From Oceanipulchritudo coccoides (GTDB lineage Bacteria; Verrucomicrobiota; Verrucomicrobiia; Opitutales; Oceanipulchritudinaceae): a DNA stretch of 64,000 bases. Made by a program: the position numbers and the translations under genes. Numbering within the stretch: the stretch's first letter is position 1; the number at the start of each line of letters is the position of its first letter. Under the pieces are notes generated by a model. The model saw only the letters and a list, made by a program, of their open reading frames with translations, did no database searches and was not told the origin of the DNA. This document shows, piece by piece, positions 44,940 to 61,234 of the stretch. The DNA lies in contig NZ_JAAGNX010000001.1 in NCBI RefSeq assembly GCF_010500615.1, positions 496,001 to 560,000 on the forward strand, written 5' to 3'.

Positions 44940-46301
44940 TTACAGCTTGAACCTGTATTTTTCCAATTCGGCTTTTTGGATTTCCGATGCTTTCTTGATG
45001 TAGGCCTCTGCCTCCAATCCACTGACTTCCTCGATGACTTCCTTGATCAGTTCCTTGCCGGAGGACTTCTTTTTAGCCGTTGCCAATTTTGCCTGCAAGG
45101 CGTCAAAGAAGGTGTCCGTGTAGCGCCGGTAGGCGTCCAGAAGGATAAAACGGGCCCCCTGAGGGTTGTCGAAATTCACATTGACGCCATCCTGATGTTT
45201 CGGGTCATAGGGAACCGAACGATCTTCATCCTCATTCCAGTTGAGGAGGTCGAGCCCGTATCCGAGCATATTCCTGTTTACGGGGACCTTTCTCAACATT
45301 TCCCATTGATAGATTTCATCGACTCCCTGAACCTTGATGATCGCGACGTCGAAGAGAAAACGCATGATCACGGGCTCAAACCAGTCGGTGTCGACCACTG
45401 GAAACCGCACCAACTTCACCTGCCGCCGGAATCGCGGCATGAAGACGGTCTCGGCCCGGAACCGCTGGTTACGCCGCCATGCCCAACTGAACGGATCGTA
45501 GATGTGGGTGAGGTTTTCGAGAAATTTTTCCTTGAGCTCCTGAACTTGTTCCTGCGCGGGCTGTTTTGAACTGATAAAGATGGGATAGGTCAGTCTGACG
45601 TGCTCAAAGTCGCCCGGAAGAACGTGTTGGGTCAGTCCACGGTTGATGAAGTGGTATCCCTTGTTTGTCTCCAGGTTGAGGCCTTGTTCCTTGAGAATAT
45701 CGATGTATTGACGCCACCCGTCCTTGTGCGGTATCGAAAAGTCAACCTTCCAACTGGTCGTCACGCGACGTTCCCATCTGCCGGACTCCTCGTTGTAGCG
45801 GATATCCCTTCCGTATTTTGATTTGGGCCGCCTCTTGGTGCGTTCGAGACGATCCAGATCCCATACGACGAGTGCATCAATCCGGAAAAACGGATCGTCA
45901 ATAAGCCTTCGCAAAATCTGTCTCTCGATATTCAGAAAGCGATCCCGGTAAATGCCGATTGTCCCAATTCCGAAGGCCTGCGCGAGCGTGTTCAGTTCCT
46001 GGACAAACTCCGTTCCGAATTTGGCCTGAACCAGCATATAGGAATATTCTTCCTTCAAGATTCTGCGATGGTATCCCAGAAGGATATCATTAAATTCCTC
46101 GCGGAATCCATCTACGACCGGATTGCTTTCGTGGTATGGCTTACCGGTAAATCCATCCACGACATCAATAATCCCGGAATACACGACAAAGGGTTGCAGC
46201 TCGATGATGTTTGGATCAATCGCGGATGAATCCTTCCCTGAAGCACTGATGGGTAGGATTACCGCCATTCCAATGAGGAACTGGTGATAAAAAGATCGCA
46301 T
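44940..46301 (-). CDS. Secreted protein of unknown function
   Basis: A 453-residue protein that I do not recognise. It has a signal peptide (MRSFYHQFLIGMAVILPISA, then SG). The mature N-terminus reads IIELQPFVVYSGIIDVVDGF, reminiscent of the start of Verrucomicrobia TonB-dependent receptor-type proteins (ELSPFVV), but no barrel follows. The remainder is charged with many Arg, Lys and Trp, no membrane helix, and a Lys-rich helical C-terminus (KKKSSGKELIKEVIEEVSGL). It lies 13 bases after the two-headed sulfatase's stop side, in the same orientation (downstream of it), so it could be the distal gene of that transcript. Confidence 0.65.
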   Translation of the reverse strand: MRSFYHQFLIGMAVILPISASGKDSSAIDPNIIELQPFVVYSGIIDVVDGFTGKPYHESNPVVDGFREEFNDILLGYHRRILKEEYSYMLVQAKFGTEFVQELNTLAQAFGIGTIGIYRDRFLNIERQILRRLIDDPFFRIDALVVWDLDRLERTKRRPKSKYGRDIRYNEESGRWERRVTTSWKVDFSIPHKDGWRQYIDILKEQGLNLETNKGYHFINRGLTQHVLPGDFEHVRLTYPIFISSKQPAQEQVQELKEKFLENLTHIYDPFSWAWRRNQRFRAETVFMPRFRRQVKLVRFPVVDTDWFEPVIMRFLFDVAIIKVQGVDEIYQWEMLRKVPVNRNMLGYGLDLLNWNEDEDRSVPYDPKHQDGVNVNFDNPQGARFILLDAYRRYTDTFFDALQAKLATAKKKSSGKELIKEVIEEVSGLEAEAYIKKASEIQKAELEKYRFKL

Positions 46302-46314
46302 GGTGGTTTACCTG

Positions 46315-49221
46315 TCAGGATCCTTTGTGCTGGATGGAGTCGAGAATTGCCATCATTTCAGCAACCTTCTCCGGATACTTGCCGGCCAGGTTGTCTCGCT
46401 GGCCAATGTCCTGATTTAAATTGTACAACTGTGGCTGTTTGGAATTTCCGGTCTCGATATCCTTGTCATAAAAGAGCCGTGGGCCTTCGTACGGCGGGAT
46501 TAAAACCCAATCGCCCGAGCGGAGGACCATCCTGGCTCCAAAGCCTTCAGCGACGAGCTGATCGCGTCCCGAGCGGGTTGCTCCGAGAAGAGCTGCCGTC
46601 ATGTCCACGCTGTCTGCCATTTCCGCCTCGGGGATGCAGACCCCGGCAATTTTGGCGAAGCTGGCGAGGAAGTCGGCGTGACTTAACAGTGCGTCGCTGA
46701 CACCCGGGGTGGCCCGACCGGGTGCGCGCAAGATCATCGGGACACGTGAACCGCCATCAAACTGGCTGTATTTTCCGCCGCGAAGCGGCCCGGCCGGCTT
46801 GTGATTGCCGATTCGTTCGGGGGATTCATCAAGATACCCGTCATCAAGGATGGGTCCATTATCGCTGGAAAAGACAACAATGGTATCTTCGTCGATTCCT
46901 TCCTTTTTGAGATGGTCCATGAACTCACCCACGCACCAATCAAGCTCGACAATGACGTCCCCCCGTGGGCCGTGGTCCGTGGCTCCGGCGAAGCGCGGGC
47001 TTGGCAGACGCGGTACATGTGGCTGGTGCAATGCGTAGTAGAGGAAAAACGGCTCATCCTTGTTTTCTGAAATGAAGGCTTTCGCTTTATTGAGAAAGTT
47101 CTCGGCCATGGTTTCATCATCCCATTCGGCATTTTTGCCGCCTTTAGAGAATCCGATGCGTCCCACGCCATCGACGATGGTATCCCAGTGTTGCGTGTCG
47201 CTGTGTGTCATTCTCAGGAGCTCCGGATGCTCCTTTCCTGTGGGGATTTCCGGGAAGGGATTGTCTCCACCATACACAACTGTGATCGGGTCATCGGGAT
47301 CCAGATTCTCCACGCGGCGGCCATCCACATAAACGCAGGGAACGCGGTCATTGGTGGCGGCCATGATATAGGAGTGGTCAAAACCGACATCCAAAGGGGT
47401 GGGGCGGATCTCGCCGTTCCAGTCAACCTTCCCGTTTCCAAGACCAATGTGCCATTTGCCGACAACGCCGGTCGTGTATCCGGCTTCCTTCAAGGTGGAT
47501 GGGACGGTTCGCTCATCCTCCCCGATAATCATCCCGGCATTCCCTGAAAGGATTTTGGCATCCTTGTTGCGCCACGGATAGGAACCAGTGAGCAGGCTGT
47601 AGCGGGAAGGTGTACACGTTGCCGCAGTGGCATAGGCTGAAGTGAAGCGGATGCCCTCGGCAGCCATCTGGTCGAGATTCGGGGTGAGTATGCCCGTGGC
47701 TCCATAGCTGTTGAGGTCCCCGTATCCAAGGTCGTCCGCATAAATGATGATGAAGTTCGGCTTCTTTGCTTTTGGGGCCTTCGGGATCGGGAGCTTGGCA
47801 CCCATGCGGTTGAGCCATCCCTCCTGGGCCGCGACCATTTCTTCAAACTTTTCCGGATTACATTCTGACAAGTCGCTCGACTCGCCCAAGTCCTCAGCAA
47901 GATTGTACAACTCGCGGGTTCCGGTTTCGTAATGCTGGATCAATTTCCAGTCGCCTGACCGGATGGCCGAGCCGGGAGCCCAGGTGGATCCATGATAATG
48001 CGGGTAGTGCCAGACGAGTGTGCGGGGAGTGGATTGTGCCGGTTCTGAAATTGCCGGGGCCAGGGAAATACCGTCCAAATGCAGATCGGGGCGGGCCGGG
48101 AGATCGAGAAGATCGAGAACCGTAGGCATCAAATCCATGCTAATGGCGGCCTGACTTGAGACCGAGCCCGGTTTGGTCTTGTCTGGGGCGCGGACAATGA
48201 GAGGGACGCGAATTCCACCTTCGTAGCACCAACCCTTGCCGGAACGCAGGGGAAGGTTGGCAGTCGGGGCGAGGCCGCCTCCCTGGGTTGACAGGCCGCC
48301 GTTGTCAGAAGTGAAAACGATTACGGTCTCCTCTTCCAAGCCAAGCGCATCGAGCTCATCGAGCAAGCGCCCGACATTTTCGTCCACAGAACGGACCATG
48401 GCTGCGTATTTTGGATTCGATTGATGGAGGCGCGTTTTGGCCTTACCCTCAACCGCGAATGCGTCCGGGTCCTCAAGATCAAGAGCGTCCCGTTTGGCCT
48501 TGTAGTGGTCATCCCAGTCTTTGGCCCCTTGGATGGGCGTGTGTACTGAGTAATAAGCCAGATACACCATGAACGGGTCGTCCTTATTTTCCCGCACGTA
48601 GGCAATGGCTTCATCGGTGAGGCGGTCGGTCAGGTATTCAGCCTCCGGCCCGTCATCAAGTCGGGGATTTTTATAGGGACTGTAATAGCCGCCGGGAGGG
48701 GAGCCTTTGCTGAAGCCACCTTTATTGACATCAAAGCCTTGGTTTTCCGGCCAGAATTCCGGGGTTTCCCCGAGGTGCCATTTACCGAAGTAACCGGTGG
48801 AGTAACCATGCTCCTTGAGCACCTCAGCGAGGGTGACCTCCTCCAGGGGAAGATTATCCCGGTCCTCAGGTGTCTGGAGCAGGGGATTTTTTTGTTCATA
48901 TCCGCGAATCCAGTCAGTGATATCGACCCGGACGGGATGGCGCCCGGTCATTAGGGCGGCTCGCGTCGGCGAGCAAACCGGAGAGGCGGCATAGGCGTTA
49001 TCAAAGCGAATTCCTTCCAAGGCCATCGCATCCAAAGCTGGGGTGTCGTAAAAATTGCTTCCATAGCAGCCCAGGTCAGCCCATCCGAGGTCGTCCACGA
49101 CAATGACAATCAAGTTTGGCGGTTTCTTGTCATGCGTTTGGGCGTCTACCAAATGAAAGATCCCAATTAGGAGGCACGCTATTGAGAAAAGTTTTCTGCT
49201 GATTTGAGGCAATCGATTCAT
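46315..49221 (-). CDS. Two-headed sulfatase: two complete sulfatase domains in one chain
   Basis: Secreted formylglycine sulfatase of 968 residues with two full catalytic domains. The start ATG at 49221 gives MNRLPQISRKLFSIACLLIG, a signal peptide. Domain 1 covers about 34-475: metal motif IVVDDLGWADL, formylglycine site CSPTR at Cys83, TGYFGKWHLGE, FTSDNGG. Domain 2 covers about 487-968: IYADDLGYGDL, CTPSR at Cys536, TGVVGKWHIGLG, FSSDNGP. The junction is a short Lys/Pro linker (PIPKAPKAKKPN) with no second signal peptide. Both domains keep the residues needed for activity, so one protein may remove two kinds of sulfate group. The domains differ too much for recent duplication. It diverges from the hybrid regulator over 249 bases. 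Confidence 0.92.
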   Translation of the reverse strand: MNRLPQISRKLFSIACLLIGIFHLVDAQTHDKKPPNLIVIVVDDLGWADLGCYGSNFYDTPALDAMALEGIRFDNAYAASPVCSPTRAALMTGRHPVRVDITDWIRGYEQKNPLLQTPEDRDNLPLEEVTLAEVLKEHGYSTGYFGKWHLGETPEFWPENQGFDVNKGGFSKGSPPGGYYSPYKNPRLDDGPEAEYLTDRLTDEAIAYVRENKDDPFMVYLAYYSVHTPIQGAKDWDDHYKAKRDALDLEDPDAFAVEGKAKTRLHQSNPKYAAMVRSVDENVGRLLDELDALGLEEETVIVFTSDNGGLSTQGGGLAPTANLPLRSGKGWCYEGGIRVPLIVRAPDKTKPGSVSSQAAISMDLMPTVLDLLDLPARPDLHLDGISLAPAISEPAQSTPRTLVWHYPHYHGSTWAPGSAIRSGDWKLIQHYETGTRELYNLAEDLGESSDLSECNPEKFEEMVAAQEGWLNRMGAKLPIPKAPKAKKPNFIIIYADDLGYGDLNSYGATGILTPNLDQMAAEGIRFTSAYATAATCTPSRYSLLTGSYPWRNKDAKILSGNAGMIIGEDERTVPSTLKEAGYTTGVVGKWHIGLGNGKVDWNGEIRPTPLDVGFDHSYIMAATNDRVPCVYVDGRRVENLDPDDPITVVYGGDNPFPEIPTGKEHPELLRMTHSDTQHWDTIVDGVGRIGFSKGGKNAEWDDETMAENFLNKAKAFISENKDEPFFLYYALHQPHVPRLPSPRFAGATDHGPRGDVIVELDWCVGEFMDHLKKEGIDEDTIVVFSSDNGPILDDGYLDESPERIGNHKPAGPLRGGKYSQFDGGSRVPMILRAPGRATPGVSDALLSHADFLASFAKIAGVCIPEAEMADSVDMTAALLGATRSGRDQLVAEGFGARMVLRSGDWVLIPPYEGPRLFYDKDIETGNSKQPQLYNLNQDIGQRDNLAGKYPEKVAEMMAILDSIQHKGS

Positions 49222-49470
49222 GGATTGTGGGGTAGGGCTGTTTCCAGCTGGTGGCGAAGAGCTACTATATTCTAACATACAGTTGATGCGGACATCGCGA
49301 TCAATCCTAATCCAGCCATTGAGATGTTTTGCACAGGACTTTGGGACGTTTCTCCCATACAGGACCTTTTCATTGATACAAAAAGGGGGTCTGGCCCGCT
49401 TCTTTCTTCGCAGGAGCGTTATCCATGAATAATATTTGCGCTGGTCATTCCGCATCGTAGTTTGGCTTTA

Positions 49471-52400
49471 ATGAGACTTTATCCCTGTCTTCTTGTTTTC
49501 ATCCTTGGTGGTCTTTGCCTGCAATCTGAAGCATCCTTTCCGTACCAGCCTGAGCGCCCGTCGCCCCTGTCCGAGAGTTGGCGCTGGCACGCCCAGGAGG
49601 CCCTTGAGGGTCTGACGCTCCTCGGCTGTTTCGAGGGGGACGACGGCTCGGTCTGGTTTGTTTCCGACACCGGTTTGATCAATTACGACGGGGCCGAGAT
49701 TCGCCGGTATCCGGCACCAAAGGATCTTTCCCTGATGCCGTATCGTGCTGGAGTATTCACAAGGCAGGGGATTATTTACATGCTTCTTCCGGGGCAAATC
49801 GTGGAATTCAAAAATGGCAATTACCGTGATGTTTTTACCTACGAGGGTCGATACGACATGCTCTTTGGAAGTGCAGTACTGACTCAGGATGACACTGCAC
49901 TGTTCGGTACACCCGAGGGAATTGTTTCAATCAAGGATGGCGAGGCCCGAATTGTTTCACAGCGCAATCGGCGAGCTTCTTTCCTCCTCATTGATAGTCG
50001 CGGGGACCTTTGGACGAACCAGGTGAACACCGGGGTTGTCCTGCGGTATCAAGGGCTTTCCACTGATGGTCCGCTCGATGACACAACTTGGGAATCCTTT
50101 CGCATCATGCCGGATGTTGGCGCGCATTTGACGTTGGCCGAGCTTCCTGACGGGACGATTTGGTGTGCCAATGATAATCCGACAATTGGCATCTACGCGT
50201 TTGATGCAGGCTCAAACGAATGGTATCCCACACTCATTGATTCCGGGGCCGAGGAACTGGTCCACAAGCGAATCCTTGTTTCCCCGGATGGGACTTCTGT
50301 TATCTTTGGAGACAAACGGATCCTTCTCAACAAGAACGGGAAGACCGAACAACTGACCATCGAGAATTTCCGGTTCCCCCTGAGTTCACCCTTCGCAGCC
50401 ACCCTGAGTTCGGGATCAATGATCATTGGGGGCATGCGCGAGACTATCTACCTTGTCGATTGCTCCACGAACTGGTGGCAAAGTTTCAGGGGATTGAATT
50501 ATTTTTGCACGGACAAGGAAGACCGGCAATGGTTCATTACCTACGATGGTGCGGTTGTATCACGCAATACGGGGACCGACGAATGGACAATTCATGATAG
50601 TTACGAAGGTGTCATCAATACGCCATTGACGCTCATCAGCACACGGGACGGGAAGGTCTGGGCGGCTGGACGGCATGATAATGATGCGGCCATCAGTATT
50701 TTCAGCAATGGCGAGTGGACCCTCCGCGTGCACCCGGAGCTGGGAAGGCGGATCAGCCATCAATCAGTCCTTGAAACTCGTGACGGGGCTGTCCTTTTCG
50801 GCAGTGGTGATACGGATCCGGAGATGACGCCCGGACAGGGGGGCATATTGAAATACGAGGTCAATGGGGACCAGTTTACGGTCACGCACTACGCTCCGCC
50901 GAGGGTGCCCTTTCGCGTTGTCGGGATTGAGGAAGGGCCGGACGGGACCATCTGGACGGGTGGAATGCGCCTGAGCCGTCTGGATGACTTCAAGGCAATC
51001 CCGCTGGATTCCCTCGGGGAATTCGGCAACAGTTGGGTGGACGATTTCATCGTGTCCGAAACGGGCGATTTGTGGATTGCCCAGTGGGGAGTAGGCCTGC
51101 TCATCAATGAGGGCGACAACTGGTTTTACTCAGGGGAATTCAACCCGTCCCTGACTAGGGGCCTCGTTGCCTTACACGAGGATCGCTATTTTCCGGGCCA
51201 GATGTGGGCCGCTACTTCCGAGGGACTTTTCAATCTCGACACCCACAATTGGGTGAACGAACCCCTCAATGCTGACCTGAAGATTCTCCGTGAGGGAGGG
51301 ACGCTTTTCCAATCCGCCGATGGGGCTATCTGGCTCAATGCATCCAGTCGCAACTGGCATTTCAGGGATACCGGCATCATGCCGGGAAGCGAGCGCTTCG
51401 AGGCATCCTTCAAGACAACATCCTTCAAGCGCTATGATATTGTTCCTGATACCCGGATCGTTGAATTTGAGGCGAGGGTCTACGAGCCGGGCCTGAGTCA
51501 CTTCGAGTGGACGGGTAGCACGCACTGGTCACTTGCCCAGACAAATGATTTGTATTACTCCTACCGGATTGACGACGGTGAGTGGACGCCCTTTTCCAAG
51601 CGCACTGAAGTGGTTTTGGAGACTCAGTCCAATGGAGCGCACACTTTTGAGGTACGCGCCCGGACTCCCTACGGATTGATTGATCCGACTCCGGCGCGTA
51701 TTGAATTTGAGGTTATTCCTGTTCTCTGGAAACAGCCGTGGTTCATTCTAACCATGCTTCTTGTTGTGTGCGTTCTGGTCATCCTTGTTGTGATCATTGT
51801 CCGCCAGCGCATCCATCACCTCCTGGCCCTTGAAGAATACAAAATGCAGTTCTTCACCAATATTTCGCATGAGCTGCGGACGCCACTGATGGTGATTCTC
51901 GGACCACTTGAAAGCCTCTTCAAGCATGTCGACGAAAAAGGGAAAAAGCATCTTCTCATTGCACAGCGCAACGCGCGCAAACTAGTCGGTCTTCTTGACC
52001 GTCTCCTGGACTTTCGGAAGGCCGAGCTGGGCAAGATCATGTCCAATCCGCAGACCTTGGATCTTGTGGTATTTGTCCGGCAGGAAATGGATACGTTGCA
52101 ACCCCTGGCTGATCAAAAAGGGCAACAGTTGGGCTTCCACCCATCAAGCGATCACTTGTCCGTGGCATTTGATCCAAAGCACGTGGAGATTGTCCTGGAT
52201 AACCTACTGACAAACGCCATCAAATACACGCCACGTGGCGGAAAAATCGGCGTTCACCTGGATCTTGTCCGTGAGGAAGAGGGGCAGGCCACTGTGAAAA
52301 TACAGGTTGTCGACACGGGTCCTGGAATTCCGCGAAAGGAATTGGACAAGGTCTTCGATCCTTTCTACCAGATTGGTGGTGAAGATTACCAGAAGACCCA

Positions 52401-53439
52401 CAGCACGGGGATTGGCCTTGCCCATACAAAGAGCCTTATTGAAGCAATCGGTGGGCGTATTTATGCCGAGAGCCCTGTCAATCCGGCTTCTGTGGATAGT
52501 CCCGGGACGCGCTTTGTTGTTGAGTTGAAACTTGCCTTGCAGGCGGAATCGACACCGGTTTCGAAAGCGCAACCTCCGCTCGCAGACGAAGAAGACACGG
52601 ATTCGGACGAAGCGACCTATTCGACCGAGAAGAAACCGCTCATGCTCATCGTCGAGGATAATGATGACATACGTGAGTTTCTGGAAAGCGAGTTGAGCGA
52701 GACATACAATGTCATCCTTGCGCCAAACGGGAAGGAGGGCCTCGAAATTGCCCGGGAGCGTATCCCGGACCTGATTGTCTCGGATGTCCTCATGCCGATT
52801 ATGAACGGGCGCGACCTCTGCCGGAATTTGAAGGCGGATCCCCTTACTTCGCATATTCCGGTAATTCTGCTCACGGCTCAGAAATCCGAGGTCAACGAGC
52901 TGGCGGGTCTGGAAACCGGTGCTGATGATTATATCACCAAGCCGGTCAATCTGGCCCTCATGGGCAGGCGCTTGGAAAACATCCTCCTGAACCGCCGCAA
53001 GGTCCGGGAATTTATCAGTAGCCACACCCGATCCATCGCGATCAATAAGGATGAATTGCCGGTCAACAAGATTGACCAGGAGTTCATGGTCAAATTCATG
53101 GAGACGATCGAGGAAAACCTGACCAGCGAAACCTTTGATGTGGAGGGTCTCGCCAAACTGATGTTCATGAGCCGGATGACCCTGTACCGGAAGGTGAAGG
53201 CTCTCACCGGGGAGTCCCCGGGTAACATCATCCGGACCGTCCGCTTGAAGAAGGCCGCGCAGTATCTGGAGACTGGATCCTGGATGGTAAGCCAGGTCAT
53301 TGAAAAGGTTGGCTTTCTCGACATGAGCCATTTTTCAAGATCCTTCAAAAAGGAATATGGTTGTACCCCCACGCAGTATATTGAGCGCTACAGTGCAGGT
53401 TCTGTGACAACCGAGGAGAAAATAACCTCTGAGGAGTGA
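49471..53439 (+). CDS. Hybrid two-component system regulator (one-chain sensor, kinase, receiver, AraC)
   Basis: A 1322-residue HTCS-type regulator. The ATG at 49471 begins a signal peptide (MRLYPCLLVFILGGLCLQSE). A periplasmic beta-propeller-like sensor follows, with repeated segments (DGSVWFVSDTG, RGDLWTNQ, DGTIWTGG, TGDLWIAQ), then a Y_Y_Y domain. One membrane helix is at about 753-776. The kinase has H-box SHELRTPL with His800, N-box DNLLTNAIKYTP and G-box TGIGLAHTKSL. The receiver phospho-acceptor is Asp1105 in LIVSDVLMP, with TAQKS and ITKPVN. The C-terminal AraC HTH covers about 1205-1310. This regulator class is best known from Bacteroides polysaccharide loci, where the sensor binds an oligosaccharide. 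Its position between sulfatases and galactanase-like genes indicates it controls this locus. Confidence 0.94.
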   Translation: MRLYPCLLVFILGGLCLQSEASFPYQPERPSPLSESWRWHAQEALEGLTLLGCFEGDDGSVWFVSDTGLINYDGAEIRRYPAPKDLSLMPYRAGVFTRQGIIYMLLPGQIVEFKNGNYRDVFTYEGRYDMLFGSAVLTQDDTALFGTPEGIVSIKDGEARIVSQRNRRASFLLIDSRGDLWTNQVNTGVVLRYQGLSTDGPLDDTTWESFRIMPDVGAHLTLAELPDGTIWCANDNPTIGIYAFDAGSNEWYPTLIDSGAEELVHKRILVSPDGTSVIFGDKRILLNKNGKTEQLTIENFRFPLSSPFAATLSSGSMIIGGMRETIYLVDCSTNWWQSFRGLNYFCTDKEDRQWFITYDGAVVSRNTGTDEWTIHDSYEGVINTPLTLISTRDGKVWAAGRHDNDAAISIFSNGEWTLRVHPELGRRISHQSVLETRDGAVLFGSGDTDPEMTPGQGGILKYEVNGDQFTVTHYAPPRVPFRVVGIEEGPDGTIWTGGMRLSRLDDFKAIPLDSLGEFGNSWVDDFIVSETGDLWIAQWGVGLLINEGDNWFYSGEFNPSLTRGLVALHEDRYFPGQMWAATSEGLFNLDTHNWVNEPLNADLKILREGGTLFQSADGAIWLNASSRNWHFRDTGIMPGSERFEASFKTTSFKRYDIVPDTRIVEFEARVYEPGLSHFEWTGSTHWSLAQTNDLYYSYRIDDGEWTPFSKRTEVVLETQSNGAHTFEVRARTPYGLIDPTPARIEFEVIPVLWKQPWFILTMLLVVCVLVILVVIIVRQRIHHLLALEEYKMQFFTNISHELRTPLMVILGPLESLFKHVDEKGKKHLLIAQRNARKLVGLLDRLLDFRKAELGKIMSNPQTLDLVVFVRQEMDTLQPLADQKGQQLGFHPSSDHLSVAFDPKHVEIVLDNLLTNAIKYTPRGGKIGVHLDLVREEEGQATVKIQVVDTGPGIPRKELDKVFDPFYQIGGEDYQKTHSTGIGLAHTKSLIEAIGGRIYAESPVNPASVDSPGTRFVVELKLALQAESTPVSKAQPPLADEEDTDSDEATYSTEKKPLMLIVEDNDDIREFLESELSETYNVILAPNGKEGLEIARERIPDLIVSDVLMPIMNGRDLCRNLKADPLTSHIPVILLTAQKSEVNELAGLETGADDYITKPVNLALMGRRLENILLNRRKVREFISSHTRSIAINKDELPVNKIDQEFMVKFMETIEENLTSETFDVEGLAKLMFMSRMTLYRKVKALTGESPGNIIRTVRLKKAAQYLETGSWMVSQVIEKVGFLDMSHFSRSFKKEYGCTPTQYIERYSAGSVTTEEKITSEE

Positions 53440-53541
53440 ATTCCCTTACAGATCGTGCTATTGTTACCATTCTGCCATGGAATTGGGATTCCTTGACTAC
53501 CTGCATGGAAGCATTTCCGCTATTCTTGTTTTTTCAATCTA

Positions 53542-54603
53542 ATGCAATCCTCCATTGTAAAAGTTCTCCTCTTGAAAAGCCTTTGTCTGCTTTTTTCACT
53601 TGTTCCCAGCGTTGGTGCGCAGATAAACACCGGCCTGGCCTGGGACCCTTCGGCTCCCGGTTGGAATATCCACTGGAATAGTACGCCCGGTCTTTATTAC
53701 GCTGTTGAAAAGACGCATGATCTTCAGGCGTGGACGCTTCTGGAAAGCGGAATCCTGGCGGAAAGTGCTTCTCTTGAAAGGTCACTTCCTGAGGAATCCT
53801 CCTTTCCTGTCTTTTACCGGGTCCTTGAGGATGCCTTTGTCGATCCGGCCACACCGGCCGATGCCCAGCCAGTCCTGAATGTTCCGACGGGCGATGATTG
53901 GGTTCTCGAGTTCAGTGATGAATTCAACTTCCTGGATCCCTCCAAGTGGAATGTGACGGTCAGTACGAAAACGCGCAGCCCCCGATGGGACAAAGGGATC
54001 CAAAGGTGGTTCTGGAAGGAGGAGAACGTCTCCGTTGAGAACGGCGAGCTCGTCTTCAAGGTGACCAAGCCAAATAGCACAACCATGTATTGCGGATCCG
54101 TCGATTCGCGGGGAATTTATGAGCCGCTGTATGGATTCATGGAGGCGCGTATCCAGATCGCGCCCGTGGTCAACGCCATCCATACCGCGTTTTGGACGCA
54201 GGGCCAAAATATGAATAATGTGGATAACAGCGGGGCTGACGGGGCAGAAGTCGACATTGTGGAAACGCCCTGGGCGGATGAACGCGGGCAGACGGTCATT
54301 CACTGGGACGGCTATGGAGCGAACAAGAAATCAAAGACCAACCGCTGGTCAGCGCCCGGGCTCCATACTGGATATCACACTTTTTCGATGCATTGGACGG
54401 AGTCGTTCATCGATATTTTTTACGATGGCGTATTCAAGTGGCGTTATGAAGGGGTGGGGATCCCTCAGGTCCGTGAATGGCTTTGGCTATCCGTGGGAGC
54501 CAGTTTCGGGGATGGGGATTTCCAGAATGGCACTTACCCGTCCTATGCCTATGTCGATTATGTGCGGGTCTGGCGGAGTGAAACGGCCGGAACCAGCCAA
54601 TAA
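53542..54603 (+). CDS. Secreted GH16 enzyme, galactanase-like (agarase/porphyranase group)
   Basis: A 353-residue secreted GH16 hydrolase. The signal peptide ends near VPSVGA. Residues about 26-95 form a small Verrucomicrobia-type domain (LYYAVEKTHDLQAWTLLESG) found attached to secreted enzymes. The catalytic domain spans about 110-347 with AEVDIVETPW: nucleophile Glu236, Asp238 and acid/base Glu241. The catalytic motif and flanking HWDGYGANKKS differ clearly from the GEIDIME enzymes at 9-15 kb, so the substrate should differ. The GH50 and sulfatase genes downstream point to agar or porphyran, but this is inference. First structural gene after the regulator, 102 bases away. Confidence 0.85.
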   Translation: MQSSIVKVLLLKSLCLLFSLVPSVGAQINTGLAWDPSAPGWNIHWNSTPGLYYAVEKTHDLQAWTLLESGILAESASLERSLPEESSFPVFYRVLEDAFVDPATPADAQPVLNVPTGDDWVLEFSDEFNFLDPSKWNVTVSTKTRSPRWDKGIQRWFWKEENVSVENGELVFKVTKPNSTTMYCGSVDSRGIYEPLYGFMEARIQIAPVVNAIHTAFWTQGQNMNNVDNSGADGAEVDIVETPWADERGQTVIHWDGYGANKKSKTNRWSAPGLHTGYHTFSMHWTESFIDIFYDGVFKWRYEGVGIPQVREWLWLSVGASFGDGDFQNGTYPSYAYVDYVRVWRSETAGTSQ

Positions 54604-54757
54604 CATGAAGTTAGGGGTTTTGATCAAATTAGCACACGGGTTGGTTACATGTGTTCTAACAGTATTTCCTGATTTATTCTAAATTCTTCTCTTTTAAAGC
54701 GGACGTATTTCGCATAGTCTACTTATTCTAACCTCTAATTAAAATAAAGTTATCCCC
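54604..54757 (+). promoter_or_regulatory. AT-rich intergenic region with repeated TTCTAA motifs
   Basis: Three TTCTAA-type words occur: GTTCTAAC at 54653-54660, TATTCTAAA at 54675-54683 and TATTCTAAC at 54724-54732. A fourth TATTCTAAC occurs at 49268-49276, in the region between the two-headed sulfatase and the regulator. This region probably holds the promoter of the secreted-protein gene at 54758; the words could be sites for the hybrid regulator. Confidence 0.3.
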
Positions 54758-55642
54758 ATGAAAAAATTATTGTTTATTGTACCCCTTCTCGGCCTTGTTG
54801 CCACTGCGACTGCACAAACGACCCACTGGGCAGCCAACTGGGCGACCGTCCAAGGTGTCGCGGACTTTAACACGGACTACTATTTCGAAGCCACCGCGAA
54901 TACCCCGGCAGATGTCGCTGGCGGCACCGATGCGTGGTATAATTCCAATGGCGCTGTAAACCCGAATATCGCCTCTTCAGGCAAAGGTGGGATTTTCCAG
55001 GAACAGACAAATGGCGCCTCACGAGGAACAAGCTATGTTCTGGATAGCTCGTTCTTTTCCGGAGCTGGAACCTACACCTTCAATTATGAGATCTGGGCCA
55101 TTTATACACCCACAGACTTGTCAGTGAGCATTTGGGAAGCAACTGGTGGCGCCGAAGTGGAAAACAGCTATAACATCAATAATGCAGGGCCCGCCTACAC
55201 GGATTTATCGGTCACTTCAAATGGGACATCAACCATTGCATTAAAAGGCCGCAAAATTCACAAAAGGGATCTTGAAGGAGGCGATGTCGTTAACAAGCAA
55301 TGGGATGCCTTCTCCTTTACCTTTGAGTATTCGGGCTCTGGCGATGTCGTCATTCACATTTGGGGCCGCAAAAGGGATTCCGCCGGTGAATTTGCCCAAG
55401 TTGGTTTCACAATTGGTGGCGACATGAGCATAACTTCAGAAGGTGGTTCATCACCGACCTGGGCTGGATACGATATTGCCGAAGGGGGCCTTGTTGACAC
55501 GGGAGACTTCCTTGGCTGGCTCAATGTTGGTGAAGGCACTTTCGGAGACTGGGTCTTTTCATACGACCTGGATAGTTTCCTGTTTCTCCCCGAGGAGATT
55601 GTTGATCCCCAGGTGGGCTCATGGGCATACGTACCGCGCTAA
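54758..55642 (+). CDS. Secreted beta-rich protein with shared aromatic tail, unknown function
   Basis: A 294-residue protein not recognised as a known family. It has a clear signal peptide (MKKLLFIVPLLGLVATATAQ). Residues about 21-230 are beta-rich and low in charge, with aromatic and Gly/Ser/Thr residues (GTYTFNYEIWAIY, DVVIHIWGRKRDS), as in jelly-roll or carbohydrate-binding domains. Residues 235-294 form the tail also seen on two GH16 enzymes (LVDTGDFLGWLNV, ending GSWAYVPR). Placement inside the galactan locus suggests a surface glycan-binding role. A strong promoter is plausible because the 154-base upstream region is AT-rich. Confidence 0.75.
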   Translation: MKKLLFIVPLLGLVATATAQTTHWAANWATVQGVADFNTDYYFEATANTPADVAGGTDAWYNSNGAVNPNIASSGKGGIFQEQTNGASRGTSYVLDSSFFSGAGTYTFNYEIWAIYTPTDLSVSIWEATGGAEVENSYNINNAGPAYTDLSVTSNGTSTIALKGRKIHKRDLEGGDVVNKQWDAFSFTFEYSGSGDVVIHIWGRKRDSAGEFAQVGFTIGGDMSITSEGGSSPTWAGYDIAEGGLVDTGDFLGWLNVGEGTFGDWVFSYDLDSFLFLPEEIVDPQVGSWAYVPR

Positions 55643-55711
55643 CCCCTCTCCCCTCAGTTTAAACCTCAATTAACCTGCCGGTACACTCTGGCTACCCAGG
55701 AATCCTATATC

Positions 55712-56176
55712 ATGAAACTTATACGAACGATATCCCTCTTTTTGCTGACTTTGGCTTTGCTCAACCCATCCTCTGCCTTCGCGGGTGAAACTTCGATGAC
55801 AGAGAAGTTGAATGAGATGGTTGGGCGCAAGCTCTACGTAGACCCTGCTGATATTCCAGGCAAGATACACACGTGGAAGGACGTGAAAAAGTGGTATCCT
55901 GCCCGTGGGAAGGATCCCCTGAGAATGTCTTACCCGGAGAGCTTGAAAGGAACCGGGATCAGCGAGATGGTAACTGTCAGGCTGATTATTACCCCTGAAG
56001 GGAATGCGATTAATCCGAAGATTGAAGACCTCCAAAACAAGGAATTGGCAATCCCAGCGATTCTGCACGTTGCCGGTCTCCGTTTCCAGGTTCCGAAAAT
56101 CAACGGGGAACCCGTTTACTTGAGCCAGAAGATCAAGCTGAAGTGTTCAGAAGATCCTGACTTTGGAAAAAAGTAG
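55712..56176 (+). CDS. Secreted protein with a TonB C-terminal-type domain
   Basis: A 154-residue protein with a signal peptide (IRTISLFLLTLALLNPSSAF, then AG). The second half fits the TonB C-terminal fold: YPESLKGTGISEMVTVRLII, then TPEGNAINPKIED and a final strand before QKIKLKCSEDP. It lacks the Pro-rich spanning region of an energy transducer, and its only hydrophobic segment looks cleavable. It could be a soluble periplasmic protein using this fold for binding. It lies 18 bases before the sulfatase gene, so the two are likely co-transcribed. Confidence 0.68.
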   Translation: MKLIRTISLFLLTLALLNPSSAFAGETSMTEKLNEMVGRKLYVDPADIPGKIHTWKDVKKWYPARGKDPLRMSYPESLKGTGISEMVTVRLIITPEGNAINPKIEDLQNKELAIPAILHVAGLRFQVPKINGEPVYLSQKIKLKCSEDPDFGKK

Positions 56177-56194
56177 ACGCTGGGGGATCGCATC

Positions 56195-57580
56195 ATGTCA
56201 CAATTGAAACTGCTTCTATCCGTTGGGCTGGGCCTTGCGGCGCTGGCACTCCATGCAGAAAAGCCTAATGTCATCGTCATCATGGCGGATGATCTCGGGT
56301 ATGCGGATGTCGGATTCAACGGATGCAAGGACATCCCGACTCCGAACATCGACACACTTGCGCAGGAAGGGGCTAATTTCACCAACGCCTACGTGACCTA
56401 TCCCGTTTGCGGTCCAAGCCGGGCGGGTTTTATAACTGGGCGCTACCAGCAGCGATTCGGCTTTGAGCGCAACCCGCAGTACAAGTCGGGAGATCCGAAC
56501 ATGGGCCTTCCGCGCAGCGAGGAGACTATTGCGACAATCCTCGGCAAAGCAGGTTATACGTCGGGCATTATCGGCAAGTGGCATTTGGGTGCGCATGAGA
56601 CGCTGCATCCGCTTGAGCGCGGCTTTGATTACTTTTATGGGCACTTGGGTGGTGGTCATAATTATTTTCAGGAATTGCTGCCCATTCGCGAGGATGCGAA
56701 GGACGAAGGGGAAAGCTACAAGACCTGGATTTTGCGCAACCACGAACCGGTCAAGATCGATAAGTACCTCACCGATGTGTTTTCCGACGAGGCGGTTACT
56801 TTCATTGAACGGCACAAGGATGATCCATTTTTCCTCTTCCTTTCGTATAATGCGCCCCATACACCCATGCAGGCCCCGGAGGAGGAAATTGCCCGCTTTG
56901 TGGAGATCAAGGATCCAAAACGCCGGACTTATGCAGCGATGGTCAGCATCGTCGACAGGGGCGTTGGACAAGTCATGGACAAGCTGAAGGAGCTGGATCT
57001 GGACAAGGAAACACTTGTCTTCTTCCTTTCTGACAATGGCGGCCCGATTTACGCCAACGGATCCAATAACAAGCCTTTACGCGGAGCCAAGAGCGACGTC
57101 TGGGAAGGCGGATGGCGGGTACCGTTTGTCCTGCGCTGGACCGGTGAAGTTGAGCCGGGCTCAGAGTTTGATGAGCCAGTCTCCTCGATGGATATCCTTG
57201 GCACGATGGCTGGCCTGACCGGTGTTCCCATAGCTGAGGAACGCCCGCTTGACGGGGTTAACCTCATCCCATTCCTGAAGGGTGAGCAGTCTGGCAGTCC
57301 GCACGAGGTTATTTACCTGAGGAAGTTTGACCAGAAGCGCTATGCGGTGCGCAAAGGTGATTTCAAACTGGTGATTCCCGATCCGGAAATTCCGACCCGC
57401 TTGTTTAACCTGAGCAAGGACATTGGTGAAAAGAAGAACATTGCCGACTGGAACGCCAGGAAACTTGAGGAGCTTGATCAGTTGCGCCTGCAATGGGATG
57501 CCGAATTGATGGAGCCCCAATTCCTTGGACTTATCCACAGTGAATGGTGGAAGAAGCAGATGGAAAAGAAGAAGAACTGA
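56195..57580 (+). CDS. Secreted formylglycine-dependent sulfatase
   Basis: A 461-residue arylsulfatase-type enzyme. The signal peptide (KLLLSVGLGLAALALHA) is followed by VIMADDLGYADVG with metal-binding Asp residues. The formylglycine precursor is Cys72 in CGPSR, followed by GFITGRYQQRFG. Other motifs are TSGIIGKWHLG and FLSDNGG. It needs an anaerobic or FGE-type maturase, neither of which is in this window. The neighbours (GH50, GH16) suggest removal of sulfate from a galactan such as porphyran or agaro-type chains. Forty bases separate it from the GH50 gene. Confidence 0.92.
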   Translation: MSQLKLLLSVGLGLAALALHAEKPNVIVIMADDLGYADVGFNGCKDIPTPNIDTLAQEGANFTNAYVTYPVCGPSRAGFITGRYQQRFGFERNPQYKSGDPNMGLPRSEETIATILGKAGYTSGIIGKWHLGAHETLHPLERGFDYFYGHLGGGHNYFQELLPIREDAKDEGESYKTWILRNHEPVKIDKYLTDVFSDEAVTFIERHKDDPFFLFLSYNAPHTPMQAPEEEIARFVEIKDPKRRTYAAMVSIVDRGVGQVMDKLKELDLDKETLVFFLSDNGGPIYANGSNNKPLRGAKSDVWEGGWRVPFVLRWTGEVEPGSEFDEPVSSMDILGTMAGLTGVPIAEERPLDGVNLIPFLKGEQSGSPHEVIYLRKFDQKRYAVRKGDFKLVIPDPEIPTRLFNLSKDIGEKKNIADWNARKLEELDQLRLQWDAELMEPQFLGLIHSEWWKKQMEKKKN

Positions 57581-57620
57581 TGCTGAATGGGTCTTTCGCA
57601 TCATCTTATAACCGCAAAAA

Positions 57621-59687
57621 ATGCCTGTTAGAATGAAATACAAAATCCTCGTGACTCTTCTCATCCTCGGTCAATTCCTGACAGTGCGAGGTAATGAAAA
57701 AATGGAGACAATCACATCACCGAACGACGGTGTGTTCCCATACAAAGTCGGGACTGTCTCCGGAACTTCGCTTGAAGCCAGCAACTTTGGTCACGCTGGA
57801 ATGGGCACTGGAAATTTCCGTGTCAAGCTCCTGCCGGCGTCCGGAGACCTGTGGAACATGGAAAGCGTCAGGACGCTTGGAGTCGAGTTCAAGAACACCG
57901 GACCGTCCGAGCTGGTACTCGACCTGATGTTGTGCAACCGGAATGCCACGGCTTGGTCCAATTCCTTTGTCGGACGGACAATTGTCCAACCGGGTGAGAC
58001 AATCCCGCTCGCTGTCGGTTTGCCCAGGAAGGGGGACCGGACTGTCACGCATCCGGATTACAGCCGTATGTCCGGTCGTCCGGATGGAACGTTCCGCCAC
58101 TGGCATCATATCCAGCCCGACCGAGTCAGCCACCTCGAAATCCAGGGATCTGCCGTGGGCGAACACGCCTTTGAGTTGGGAGCACTCTACCCGCTGCAAA
58201 AGCTCATGCCGGAGCGGATGGGAAAATTTCCCTTCATCGATGAATTCGGACAGTACATTTTCAATGACTGGCCCGGGAAAGTTCATTCGATCGAGGATCT
58301 GCAGGCCGGTATTCAATTGGAAACAGACTTGATCAGCGAACTTGGCACTCCCCCTGAGTGGGGACGCTACGGTGGCTGGAAAGCAGGACCCCAGCTTGAT
58401 GGAACGGGTCATTTCCGTGTCACGCAACACAAGGGACGCTGGTGGTTTGTCGATCCGGATGGCTACTTGTTCTGGTCATTCGGGGTGACCTGTGTCGGGT
58501 TTGAGTATGCAGGGCAGGTTTCCACCGAACGCAATCCAGCGGTCTTCAGGAATCTGCCGGTGGCGGATGATCCGGAGTTTGGCCAGTTCCACACCAAGAT
58601 CGATGTTGAGGACAATTATGTCCTGCGCGAGGACGCCCCACACTACGATTTTACCCGGGCAAACTTGTACCTGAAATATGGTGATGAGTGGAGGGAAAAG
58701 GCCCTTGAGCAGGAACTGGAGCGTTTGCATTATGTTGGTCTCAATACTGTGGGGGCCTGGTCGGATAATGAAGTCGTTCTCAATACCGACATCCCGTACA
58801 CGGTGATGCTTCATTACGAATACGAGTTTGCGGCAAAGAAGCTGCCGGACCCGTTCAACCCAGAGACCCGCGAGGGGGTCCGGAAAGCTTTGGAAGCATA
58901 CCCGGTGCCCTTTCAGGATGATCCCCGCTGTCTGGGCGCATTCGTGAATAATGAGCTCCACTGGAAAAATGATGCCCGCCGCCTTGTGGCCGCCGTTTTT
59001 AGTTATGGAAAGAAGTCCACCTCGGCCAAGGAGGTCTTCAAGAATTGGCTGCAGGACCGGTATGATTCCGTGGATAGCTTCAATACAGCCTGGGGAATGA
59101 ATCTCACGAACTGGTCGGATTTGTTGGACGGTGTGCCAGAGGATTCTTTTAAGAAGGCTGATGAGGCGGATTGCTCGGCACTCGCAACACTCTTGGCCGA
59201 CGCTTTCTACCGAATGGTGGATGAGGAACTGGAGCGTTTCGCCCCGGGAGTGCTGTTTCTTGGCTCACGCTGCAATTCCGGCGGGAAGGAAGTCGTCGAC
59301 GCGATTGCCCGCCATGCCGATGTCATCAGCGCGAACATCTACCAGTTCACGGCCTCGCCATTAAACTATGGTGGTCGTGACAAGCCTGTGCTGATCAGCG
59401 AATTCCACTTCGGGAACCTTTCCGGCAACAACCTCGGAAGCGGCTTAAGAAGCGCGCAGGATCGGACGCAACAGGCACGCCTCTTGAAATCCTATCTTGG
59501 GGAGGCCGTGAATCATCCGGAAATAATCGGTGTCCACTGGTTCCAATGGCGCGACCAGAATATCGGCGGGCGGTACGATGGTGAAAATTATGATGTAGGC
59601 TTTTTTGATGTGACAGATTTGCCCAAAGCAGATTTGATCCGGGCAGCTGCCGGGTTTGCTCGTGAAATGTACGACAAGGCGGATTAA
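57621..59687 (+). CDS. Secreted GH50 beta-agarase-like enzyme
   Basis: A 688-residue glycoside hydrolase of the GH50 type, whose characterised members are beta-agarases. An N-terminal beta domain (about 30-240) leads to the TIM barrel with GRWWFVDPDGYLFWSFGV. Putative acid/base Glu445 is in NNELHW and nucleophile Glu594 in ISEFHFG, the expected clan-A pair. DEFGQYIFNDWPGKVHS is also typical. Two starts are possible: ATG at 57621 or ATG at 57633, the latter giving a neat signal peptide (MKYKILVTLLILGQFLTVRG). It lies 11 bases before the symporter gene. Agar or porphyran oligosaccharide as substrate is an inference from family and context. Confidence 0.87.
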   Translation: MPVRMKYKILVTLLILGQFLTVRGNEKMETITSPNDGVFPYKVGTVSGTSLEASNFGHAGMGTGNFRVKLLPASGDLWNMESVRTLGVEFKNTGPSELVLDLMLCNRNATAWSNSFVGRTIVQPGETIPLAVGLPRKGDRTVTHPDYSRMSGRPDGTFRHWHHIQPDRVSHLEIQGSAVGEHAFELGALYPLQKLMPERMGKFPFIDEFGQYIFNDWPGKVHSIEDLQAGIQLETDLISELGTPPEWGRYGGWKAGPQLDGTGHFRVTQHKGRWWFVDPDGYLFWSFGVTCVGFEYAGQVSTERNPAVFRNLPVADDPEFGQFHTKIDVEDNYVLREDAPHYDFTRANLYLKYGDEWREKALEQELERLHYVGLNTVGAWSDNEVVLNTDIPYTVMLHYEYEFAAKKLPDPFNPETREGVRKALEAYPVPFQDDPRCLGAFVNNELHWKNDARRLVAAVFSYGKKSTSAKEVFKNWLQDRYDSVDSFNTAWGMNLTNWSDLLDGVPEDSFKKADEADCSALATLLADAFYRMVDEELERFAPGVLFLGSRCNSGGKEVVDAIARHADVISANIYQFTASPLNYGGRDKPVLISEFHFGNLSGNNLGSGLRSAQDRTQQARLLKSYLGEAVNHPEIIGVHWFQWRDQNIGGRYDGENYDVGFFDVTDLPKADLIRAAAGFAREMYDKAD

Positions 59688-59698
59688 CAGGGAACACT

Positions 59699-61234
59699 AT
59701 GGACGCAGAGAGCGAGAACAAGGGGACAACGGAGACATCAACACCACGGCATGACCGCCTTCCGCTCGCTGAGAAGCTGGGCGTCGGTACAGGCGGCCTG
59801 ACAGTTTCGCTTGGCAACCAGAGCGTGCGAACCACGGGCATGGGCGTTTTGAACATGATCCTTGGGATCAATGCCAAATGGGTCGGTCTGGTGCTCGCAA
59901 TTCCACTTTTATGGGATGCCATCACGGACCCCATCATGGGGCACATTTCCGACAATTTTCGTTCCAAGTACGGCCGCCGCCGGCCCTTCATCTTTGGCGG
60001 GGCGATCTTGATGGGGCTGACCTTCGCCAGCATTTGGATGATCCCGCTCGGATGGAGCGATGGCGGAAAGCTGGCATGGTTTCTCATCACCAGTCTCTGC
60101 TTTTATACGTCCTACACAATCTTCTCGGTTCCGTTCATCGGACTGACTTATGAGATGACGCCGGATTATGACGAGCGCACGGCTGTGCAGGGCTATGTCA
60201 CTTTCTGGAACAGGCTGGGTGAGATGTCCTACATGGGGCTTATCCCGCTTTCCCTTGTCTTTATTGCATGGAAATATGGATACGAAACAACCACTGACTT
60301 GACGATTGCCGAGAAGATGGAAGGGATCCGTATTTCTGCCGCGGTGTACGGCGGCATTGGCATGACGCTCTTCGGAATGGTGCCCGCCCTGATCGGCAAG
60401 GAGCGCAATTATCAATTAAATCTCAAGGAGGCGAAGGGCCCCCGCCCGCGCTTCTGGCAGACGGCTAAGTCCGCCCTTCAGAACAAGGCTTGCCGCCTGC
60501 TTTGCATCCTCTCCGTTTGTACCATCGTCGCGGGTGTCTTCGCCAGCAACATGGATTGGTATCTGCTCATTTATTACCTGTCTGACGGTGACATCGCCCT
60601 CGGGACGCAATGGAAACTGATTGTGACCATCGGGTATGCCACCACAGGCATCATTGGGATACCGCTTATTGTCTGGCTGACAGGCAAGATGAGCAAGATC
60701 CAGGGGCTTCGGTTCATTTATGGGATGATGATGCTCAACGCAGTGTTGCGTTGGATTGTCTACCGGCCTGGACGCTTTGATGATCCTCTCCAGTGGACAG
60801 GTTTAGCTGAAATCATGGGCTCCCTCGGAGCGGTCTTCCAGTCGCTGATCTGGCTCGACCCGATGACCGGGGGCCTGTTCTGGATTGGGGTCGGCGTCCT
60901 CATGCAGTCAATGATTGCTGATGTGTGCGATGATGATGAACTGAAAAACGGCAGCCGCCGTGAGGCCATCTTCGGGGCCATCTTCGGTTGGGCCACGAAA
61001 GCTTCCTTTGCGGTGAGCTTTGTCATGGTTGGTTTCTTCCTGAGTTTTATTGGATTTGATCCGAGCCTCCCTGCCCAAACCGAAAGCACCTATTTCAACA
61101 TGCGGGTTGCCATGTGCCTTGGAGCAGCAACTCCGGCACTTCTCTGCTTTGTCCTTCTCGCGCTTTATCCCCTGACCAAGGAGAAGTCCGAGGAAAACCG
61201 AAGACGCCTCATTTCCCTGCGGGGAGAGGTGTGA
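59699..61234 (+). CDS. GPH-family (MFS_2) sugar:cation symporter
   Basis: A 511-residue inner-membrane protein with about 12 helices, of the glycoside-pentoside-hexuronide:cation symporter family. Signatures are WDAITDPIMGHISDNFRSKY followed by GRRRPFIFGG, and PFIGLTYEMTPDYDERTAVQ. The C-terminal half has DVCDDDELKNGSRREAIFGA. It is expected to import the di- or oligosaccharides released by the secreted enzymes with Na+ or H+. It is the last gene of the plus-strand galactan cluster, 11 bases after GH50, and no SusC/SusD-type importer is present. Confidence 0.93.
   Translation: MDAESENKGTTETSTPRHDRLPLAEKLGVGTGGLTVSLGNQSVRTTGMGVLNMILGINAKWVGLVLAIPLLWDAITDPIMGHISDNFRSKYGRRRPFIFGGAILMGLTFASIWMIPLGWSDGGKLAWFLITSLCFYTSYTIFSVPFIGLTYEMTPDYDERTAVQGYVTFWNRLGEMSYMGLIPLSLVFIAWKYGYETTTDLTIAEKMEGIRISAAVYGGIGMTLFGMVPALIGKERNYQLNLKEAKGPRPRFWQTAKSALQNKACRLLCILSVCTIVAGVFASNMDWYLLIYYLSDGDIALGTQWKLIVTIGYATTGIIGIPLIVWLTGKMSKIQGLRFIYGMMMLNAVLRWIVYRPGRFDDPLQWTGLAEIMGSLGAVFQSLIWLDPMTGGLFWIGVGVLMQSMIADVCDDDELKNGSRREAIFGAIFGWATKASFAVSFVMVGFFLSFIGFDPSLPAQTESTYFNMRVAMCLGAATPALLCFVLLALYPLTKEKSEENRRRLISLRGEV

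Follow-up and report, generated by a model that had tools for sequence, protein, structure and literature searches.

The window, a 64,000-nucleotide stretch (C1:496001-560000) of the 3.52-Mb genome of the Opitutales bacterium Oceanipulchritudo coccoides, carries a locus that probably serves as the regulated satellite of a two-part system for the utilisation of a sulfated beta-D-galactan. The other part would be a sister island at C1:802-865 kb, 285 kb from the window locus. This reading was built on what the sequence shows: which genes the locus holds, their domain families and catalytic motifs, the fold of the sensor, gene sets conserved elsewhere, and a genome that encodes receptors but no SusD. 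A carrageenan-like galactan with 4S and 6S is the most likely substrate, as judged from the nearest solved relatives of the enzymes. The locus is real and coherent, but it is a variant of known systems.

Gene content and boundaries of the locus

Every gene named in an earlier sequence-only reading of this DNA was recovered at its coordinates. The minus strand encodes a two-headed sulfatase (46315..49455) with an S1_16-like N-domain and an S1_15-like C-domain. A secreted protein of 453 aa and no recognised family (44940..46301, minus strand) begins 13 bp past the sulfatase stop and is transcribed in the same direction. Divergent from this pair, the plus strand encodes an HTCS regulator (49462..53439), a secreted GH16 predicted to be endo-acting (53542..54603), a secreted beta-rich protein with a C-terminal module of ~60 aa (54758..55642), a secreted TonB_C-domain protein (55712..56176), an S1_19-like sulfatase (56195..57580), a secreted GH50 predicted to be an exo-acting beta-agarase-like galactanase (57621..59687) and an inner-membrane GPH/MFS_2 sugar:cation symporter (59699..61234). 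The genes from the TonB_C protein through the sulfatase and GH50 to the symporter are spaced by 18, 40 and 11 bp, and an AT-rich gap of 154 bp precedes the beta-rich gene.

The start codons of the divergent genes were corrected. In the two-headed sulfatase a signal peptide (MNRLPQISRKLFSIAC...) begins at M79, so that the true start of this protein probably lies at 49221 rather than 49455, and the probable ATG of the regulator is at 49471, not 49462. This leaves 249 bp between the two genes (49222..49470, no strand assigned), a region expected to hold the promoters of both. No consensus site was found within it, and a sigma-70 promoter scan was uninformative.

Three sulfatase domains of predicted galactose type

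The three sulfatase domains proposed earlier were confirmed: 46315-49455 has two PF00884 stretches, each a complete S1 domain, and 56195-57580 has a single S1 domain. Cys-type formylglycine motifs are present in both domains of the former (CSPTR and CTPSR) and in the latter (CGPSR). The best PDB match of the N-domain is 9FO1 and its nearest enzyme is AMOR_S1_16A, an exo-4-sulfatase on kappa-carrageenan (PMC11760155); the galactose-stacking Trp (W79 of 9FO1; PMC11760155) is kept as TDWI. This domain is predicted to be an S1_16 sulfatase of the 4-O-sulfo-galactose type. The C-domain matched best with the S1_15 Gal/GalNAc-6-sulfatases 7OZC, 9BAS and 7OZE, 9BAS being the lambda-carrageenan Gal-6-sulfate enzyme of S1_15 (PMC12549532), and is predicted to be an S1_15 sulfatase of the 6-O-sulfo-galactose type. 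The product of 56195-57580 aligned with the carrageenan S1_19 enzymes 9HH3 (5.5e-111) and 6PRM (7.4e-109), which points to an S1_19 sulfatase of the carrageenan Gal-4-sulfate type.

Given these nearest S1_16, S1_15 and S1_19 relatives, the predicted job of the three domains is to take 4-O- and 6-O-sulfate off D-galactose. S1_15 and S1_16 enzymes accept GalNAc sulfates too (PMC10154612), so GalNAc glycans are also possible targets. Across the whole genome there are 68 PF00884 matches in 3.5 Mb, several of them in two-domain or fused proteins; a two-headed sulfatase is therefore not unusual here.

GH16, GH50 and the symporter

The GH16 matched PF00722 at 46.9 bits and scored 35.3 bits against the kappa-carrageenase model NF041449, far below its cut-off of 350. 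Its nearest relatives are laminarinases. By sequence it appears to fall on the laminarinase/kappa-carrageenase side, and nothing marks it clearly as an agarase or a porphyranase.

The GH50 had no match of its own in the profile libraries searched, and was assigned to the family because of its homology to Aga50D (4bq2; 3e-65). The alignment spans the catalytic domain and pairs the two catalytic Glu motifs, NNE and SEFH, with DNE and GEFH of Aga50D. GH50 is otherwise a beta-agarase family; to our knowledge, GH50 is known from agar and not from carrageenan. Double-GH50 proteins were seen in Opitutales and Kiritimatiellae relatives (L039, L041, L043). The symporter matched PF13347 at 1.3e-64 and scored 135.9 bits against the NCBIfam GPH model TIGR00792, whose cut-off is 231.

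The sulfated-galactan theme of the sequence-only reading is supported. Its agar or porphyran version is weakened, since the sulfatases are nearest to D-Gal-4- and D-Gal-6-sulfate enzymes (PMC11760155, PMC12549532) and the GH16 is no clear agarase or porphyranase. The likeness of the three domains to S1_16, S1_15 and S1_19 enzymes favours a carrageenan-like 4S/6S beta-galactan over agar or porphyran.

A one-chain hybrid regulator with a predicted Bacteroides-type sensor

The regulator was proposed to be a one-chain hybrid, and its HisKA, HATPase, REC and AraC HTH domains all scored over the Pfam cut-offs. The chain runs from a signal peptide through a double beta-propeller, a Y_Y_Y-like domain, a TM helix, HisKA, HATPase and REC to the AraC HTH, with an H-box TNISHELRTP and a receiver motif VSDVLMP. 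The sensor propeller (Reg_prop) and Y_Y_Y domains fell below the Pfam cut-offs, and the sensor had no match in the PDB by sequence. The sensor was modelled with AlphaFold from an input of 11 Opitutales sequences. The model has a pLDDT of 81 and a terminal helix at 759-779, and its best 15 Foldseek matches were the Bacteroides HTCS sensors BT4663, BT4673 and BT3049. With a second aligner, the Z-scores of HTCS sensors tied with those of unrelated propellers; the HTCS-type assignment is therefore drawn from the whole-length Foldseek matches together with the kinase-receiver-AraC arrangement. We predict from this model that the sensor is a double beta-propeller of Bacteroides HTCS type. The protein has both hallmarks of an HTCS: the four-domain chain, and a periplasmic double propeller with Y_Y_Y and one TM helix.

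A second HTCS at C1:211.5-268 kb (L099-L101) heads a run of more than 50 kb of sulfatases and glycosidases, which ends near a plug-domain receptor.

Secreted proteins of the locus

The mature N-terminus of the 453-aa protein carries IIELQPFVV, resembling the ELSPFVV of the large TonB-dependent receptors of this genome. Among 860 ORFs scanned, an ELSPFVV-like motif was otherwise found only in receptor-size proteins. Its reading as a TonB-box-like motif is a lead, not a result. A 53% paralogue in another island (L107:16399-17769, minus strand) again lies beside a sulfatase, and neither protein has a recognised barrel. A search of the plasmid collection gave no close relatives of the 453-aa protein or the GH50.

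The beta-rich protein consists of a unique N-part and the C-terminal module (55435-55642). The module occurs at 24 places in the genome, on GH16s and other exported proteins, with the pattern WAGYxIxxxGxVDTGxWLGWxNV...WxYSxxLxxYxYLPE...GAWxYxP; the window copy was unmatched in Pfam. It is probably a surface-anchor or sorting module. We considered the beta-rich protein as a SusD analogue because the module recurs beside receptors (L109, L179, L180, L170), and dropped the idea because it sits at 24 places with unrelated N-parts. The fold model of the whole protein (pLDDT 53) was too poor for use. At L180 (C2:422-436 kb), a 1345-aa plug-domain receptor adjoins a protein carrying the C-terminal module and a chondroitinase-B-like protein.

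The TonB_C domain passes its cut-off of 24.6 bits only marginally, with 25.4, and its protein has a signal peptide and no further membrane anchor. From known TonB architecture, such unanchored proteins would be unable to work as an ordinary TonB. One paralogue likewise lies directly upstream of an S1_19-like sulfatase, which is 61% identical to the window sulfatase, and there are two such pairs genome-wide. A role as conserved partner was rejected, as clear paralogues exist in this genome only and in none of 176 other Opitutales genomes.

A conserved cassette and its probable split over two places

Close relatives of the GH50 (49-57% identity) precede a GPH symporter 71-74% identical to that of the window in six genomes: one of Opitutales (L039), three of Kiritimatiellae (L041, L043, L044) and two of Planctomycetota (Sedimentisphaerales; L040, L066). 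GH42 and GH112 come next after the symporter in five of the six, the contig of L039 ending in the symporter, and L043 adds an S1_19-like sulfatase as well as galK, galE and galT. A GH16 (46%), an S1_16 (43%) and a GH50 (33%) occur together in L200, which belongs to a different family of Opitutales. The sequence-only reading had asked whether the gene order recurs in Opitutia: the GH50-GPH pair does so, in L039, but nowhere else was an HTCS found next to GH50. The N-part of the beta-rich protein is, like the TonB_C protein, absent from the 176 other Opitutales genomes, and part of the window gene order occurs in this genome only.

The window itself has neither GH42 nor GH112. The sister island contains the only GH112 of the genome (C1:838.6 kb), galK/T/E at 802-806 kb and a GH42 that is 78% identical to the Kiritimatiellae cassette GH42. 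The stretch of 46.3-61.2 kb is thus not the whole system it was taken for. The island also encodes another GH50 and GPH side by side, which share 33% and 45% identity with their window counterparts. Its S1_15 sulfatase shares 73% with the C-domain of the two-headed enzyme, and its S1_19 sulfatase 66% with the S1_19-like one of the window. GH2s, further sulfatases and a protein of 1124 aa that carries the plug of a TonB-dependent receptor are present too. For an 868-aa protein encoded there, the PDB offered no convincing relative. The single GH50-symporter-GH42-GH112 cassette of other PVC genomes suggests that the pathway is here split over two places, and this split together with the sister-island paralogues is why we read window and island as parts of one system. 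Their co-regulation is inferred; a search for a shared regulatory motif between the two gave none above shuffled controls.

Passage of the outer membrane

As the sequence-only reading had noted, the locus has no SusC/SusD: the window is without a TonB-dependent receptor and the genome without SusD (PF14322). It therefore lacks the adjacent SusC/SusD pair that defines Bacteroidota PULs. The further claim that the symporter takes the place of SusC/SusD was rejected, because this carrier sits in the wrong, inner membrane and receptors exist in the genome: it encodes 22 plug-domain TonB-dependent-receptor-like proteins, one of them inside the sister island. No receptor gene lies within about 80 kb of the window locus. 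Eight large receptors that we tested had no SusC-model match, and matched only siderophore-type receptor models, mostly in the N-terminal plug region.

Of the 22 plug-domain receptors, nine have a sulfatase within 15 kb, where random placement gave a mean of 4.4 (p 0.02), an only modest proximity. Among the 11 Opitutales HTCS homologues, a receptor was found within ~10 kb in six (L170, L181, L182, L184, L187, L188), against a chance expectation of ~12% derived from 22 receptors in 3.52 Mb. At L187, the HTCS stands between a receptor and an S1_19-like sulfatase, and genes of GH2, S1_15 and S1_19-like type follow it. The remaining five, without a nearby receptor, are L183 and L185 (both on cut-off contigs), L186, the island-A HTCS and the window. 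As HTCS genes of Opitutales are often receptor-adjacent, the window locus is an exception and gives no evidence for a symporter replacing outer-membrane transport. Entry most likely proceeds via a TonB-dependent receptor encoded elsewhere, for which the 1124-aa sister-island protein would be the first candidate.

A broader proposal, which we regard as rather unlikely, is that Opitutales have a PUL architecture of their own. It would combine a Bacteroides-type HTCS with large non-SusC TonB-dependent receptors and no SusD, and would include secreted helper proteins unknown from SusCD systems. The helpers here would be the unanchored periplasmic TonB_C protein before S1_19 and the soluble 44940-46301 product with its TonB-box-like motif, and through them the delivery of sulfatase or ligand might be coupled to TonB.

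Proposed mechanism and alternatives

In the two-part reading, the double propeller of the HTCS would bind a galactan oligosaccharide in the periplasm, and the regulator would autophosphorylate and pass the phosphate from His to Asp on one chain. Its AraC head would then turn on the divergent sulfatase and the genes from GH16 to the symporter. GH16 may cut the polymer, the S1_16, S1_15 and S1_19 domains would take 4-O- and 6-O-sulfates off galactose, and GH50 would yield short oligosaccharides or disaccharides that the GPH symporter would move over the inner membrane. Breakdown would be completed in the cytoplasm by the beta-galactosidase of GH42 and the galactosyl phosphorylase of GH112, whose genes share the sister island with galK/T/E.

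The target may instead be another galacto-configured glycan with 4S and 6S, such as a sulfated mat or soda-lake exopolysaccharide or a GalNAc-containing, chondroitin- or mucin-like one; this has a small but appreciable chance of being right. The GalNAc sulfates also taken by S1_15 and S1_16 (PMC10154612) speak for it. So do the laminarinases nearest to the GH16, the galactosyl-N-acetylhexosamine for which GH112 is known, and the origin of several cassette relatives in CSSed sediment MAGs, which we take to be soda-lake samples. However, the GH50 and the S1_19 match indicate algal-type galactans, and the Pfam search gave no lyase or hexosaminidase at the locus. The self-contained agar or porphyran system of the sequence-only reading, with uptake by the symporter in place of SusC/SusD, seems to us quite unlikely. 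It can draw on the strong Aga50D match of a GH50 whose family otherwise consists of beta-agarases and on the absence of a receptor gene from the 80 kb or so around the locus, but a symporter cannot span the outer membrane, and GH42, GH112 and the Leloir genes sit in an island with a TonB-dependent plug protein of its own. Moreover, the sulfatases match D-Gal4S/Gal6S enzymes, and L-galactose recognition is ascribed to S1_11 (PMC10154612), to which no best match here belongs.

The neighbours might also not form one regulon: the HTCS could act on the divergent sulfatase alone, or on some locus far away, with constitutive expression of the genes from GH16 to the symporter. We hold this to be very unlikely. 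The intergenic regions are without a common binding-site repeat, and the gap before the beta-rich gene could carry its own promoter; against this stand the tight spacing from the TonB_C gene to the symporter and the recurrence of HTCS-enzyme neighbourhoods in Opitutales.

Relation to known systems

The locus resembles the Bacteroides HTCS PULs (BT4663, BT4673, BT3049) in its one-chain sensor-kinase-receiver-AraC regulator, predicted double-propeller sensor and sulfatase/GH neighbours, but differs in the low sequence identity of the sensor (11-15%), the missing SusC/SusD pair, a transporter located elsewhere and the Verrucomicrobiota host. SusCD-less, TonB-containing PUL-like clusters have already been published for Verrucomicrobiota (PMC8857213, PMC11980603). 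Those of Coraliomargarita/Thalassobacterium, a related group, are likewise rich in sulfatases and CAZymes and have a TonB system without SusCD (PMC11980603); a two-component regulator is not mentioned for them, whereas an HTCS is present here, and the window cluster itself is without a TonB-dependent receptor. Histidine kinases, response regulators and TonB proteins have been mentioned as neighbours in Pontiella (PMC10880615). The kappa/iota/lambda-carrageenan systems of Pseudoalteromonas (S1_19, S1_15, GH16, GH2) share the sulfatase subfamilies and the GH16/GH2 theme, but use a GH110/GH127-type pathway in contrast to the GH50, GH42, GH112 and GPH cassette found here, and the window GH16 lies far below the kappa-carrageenase model cut-off. 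Agarolytic systems of Aga50D type also have a GH50 with conserved catalytic glutamates; here it is accompanied by three galactose sulfatase domains. No paper on a Bacteroides-type HTCS in Verrucomicrobiota was found in a search that took in few of the subscription journals. Three features are new here: an HTCS of Bacteroides type next to non-SusC receptors, a cassette found across phyla, and the additional secreted protein that carries a TonB-box-like motif.

How Verrucomicrobiota that use polysaccharides bring them through the outer membrane was named as an open question by Orellana et al. (PMC8857213). The large plug-domain receptors beside HTCS genes and sulfatase islands are candidates for this route, and the locus supplies a testable regulator of predicted Bacteroides type from another phylum. 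The GH50-symporter-GH42-GH112 cassette, common to PVC lineages, predicts that the breakdown of sulfated galactan would be finished inside the cell.
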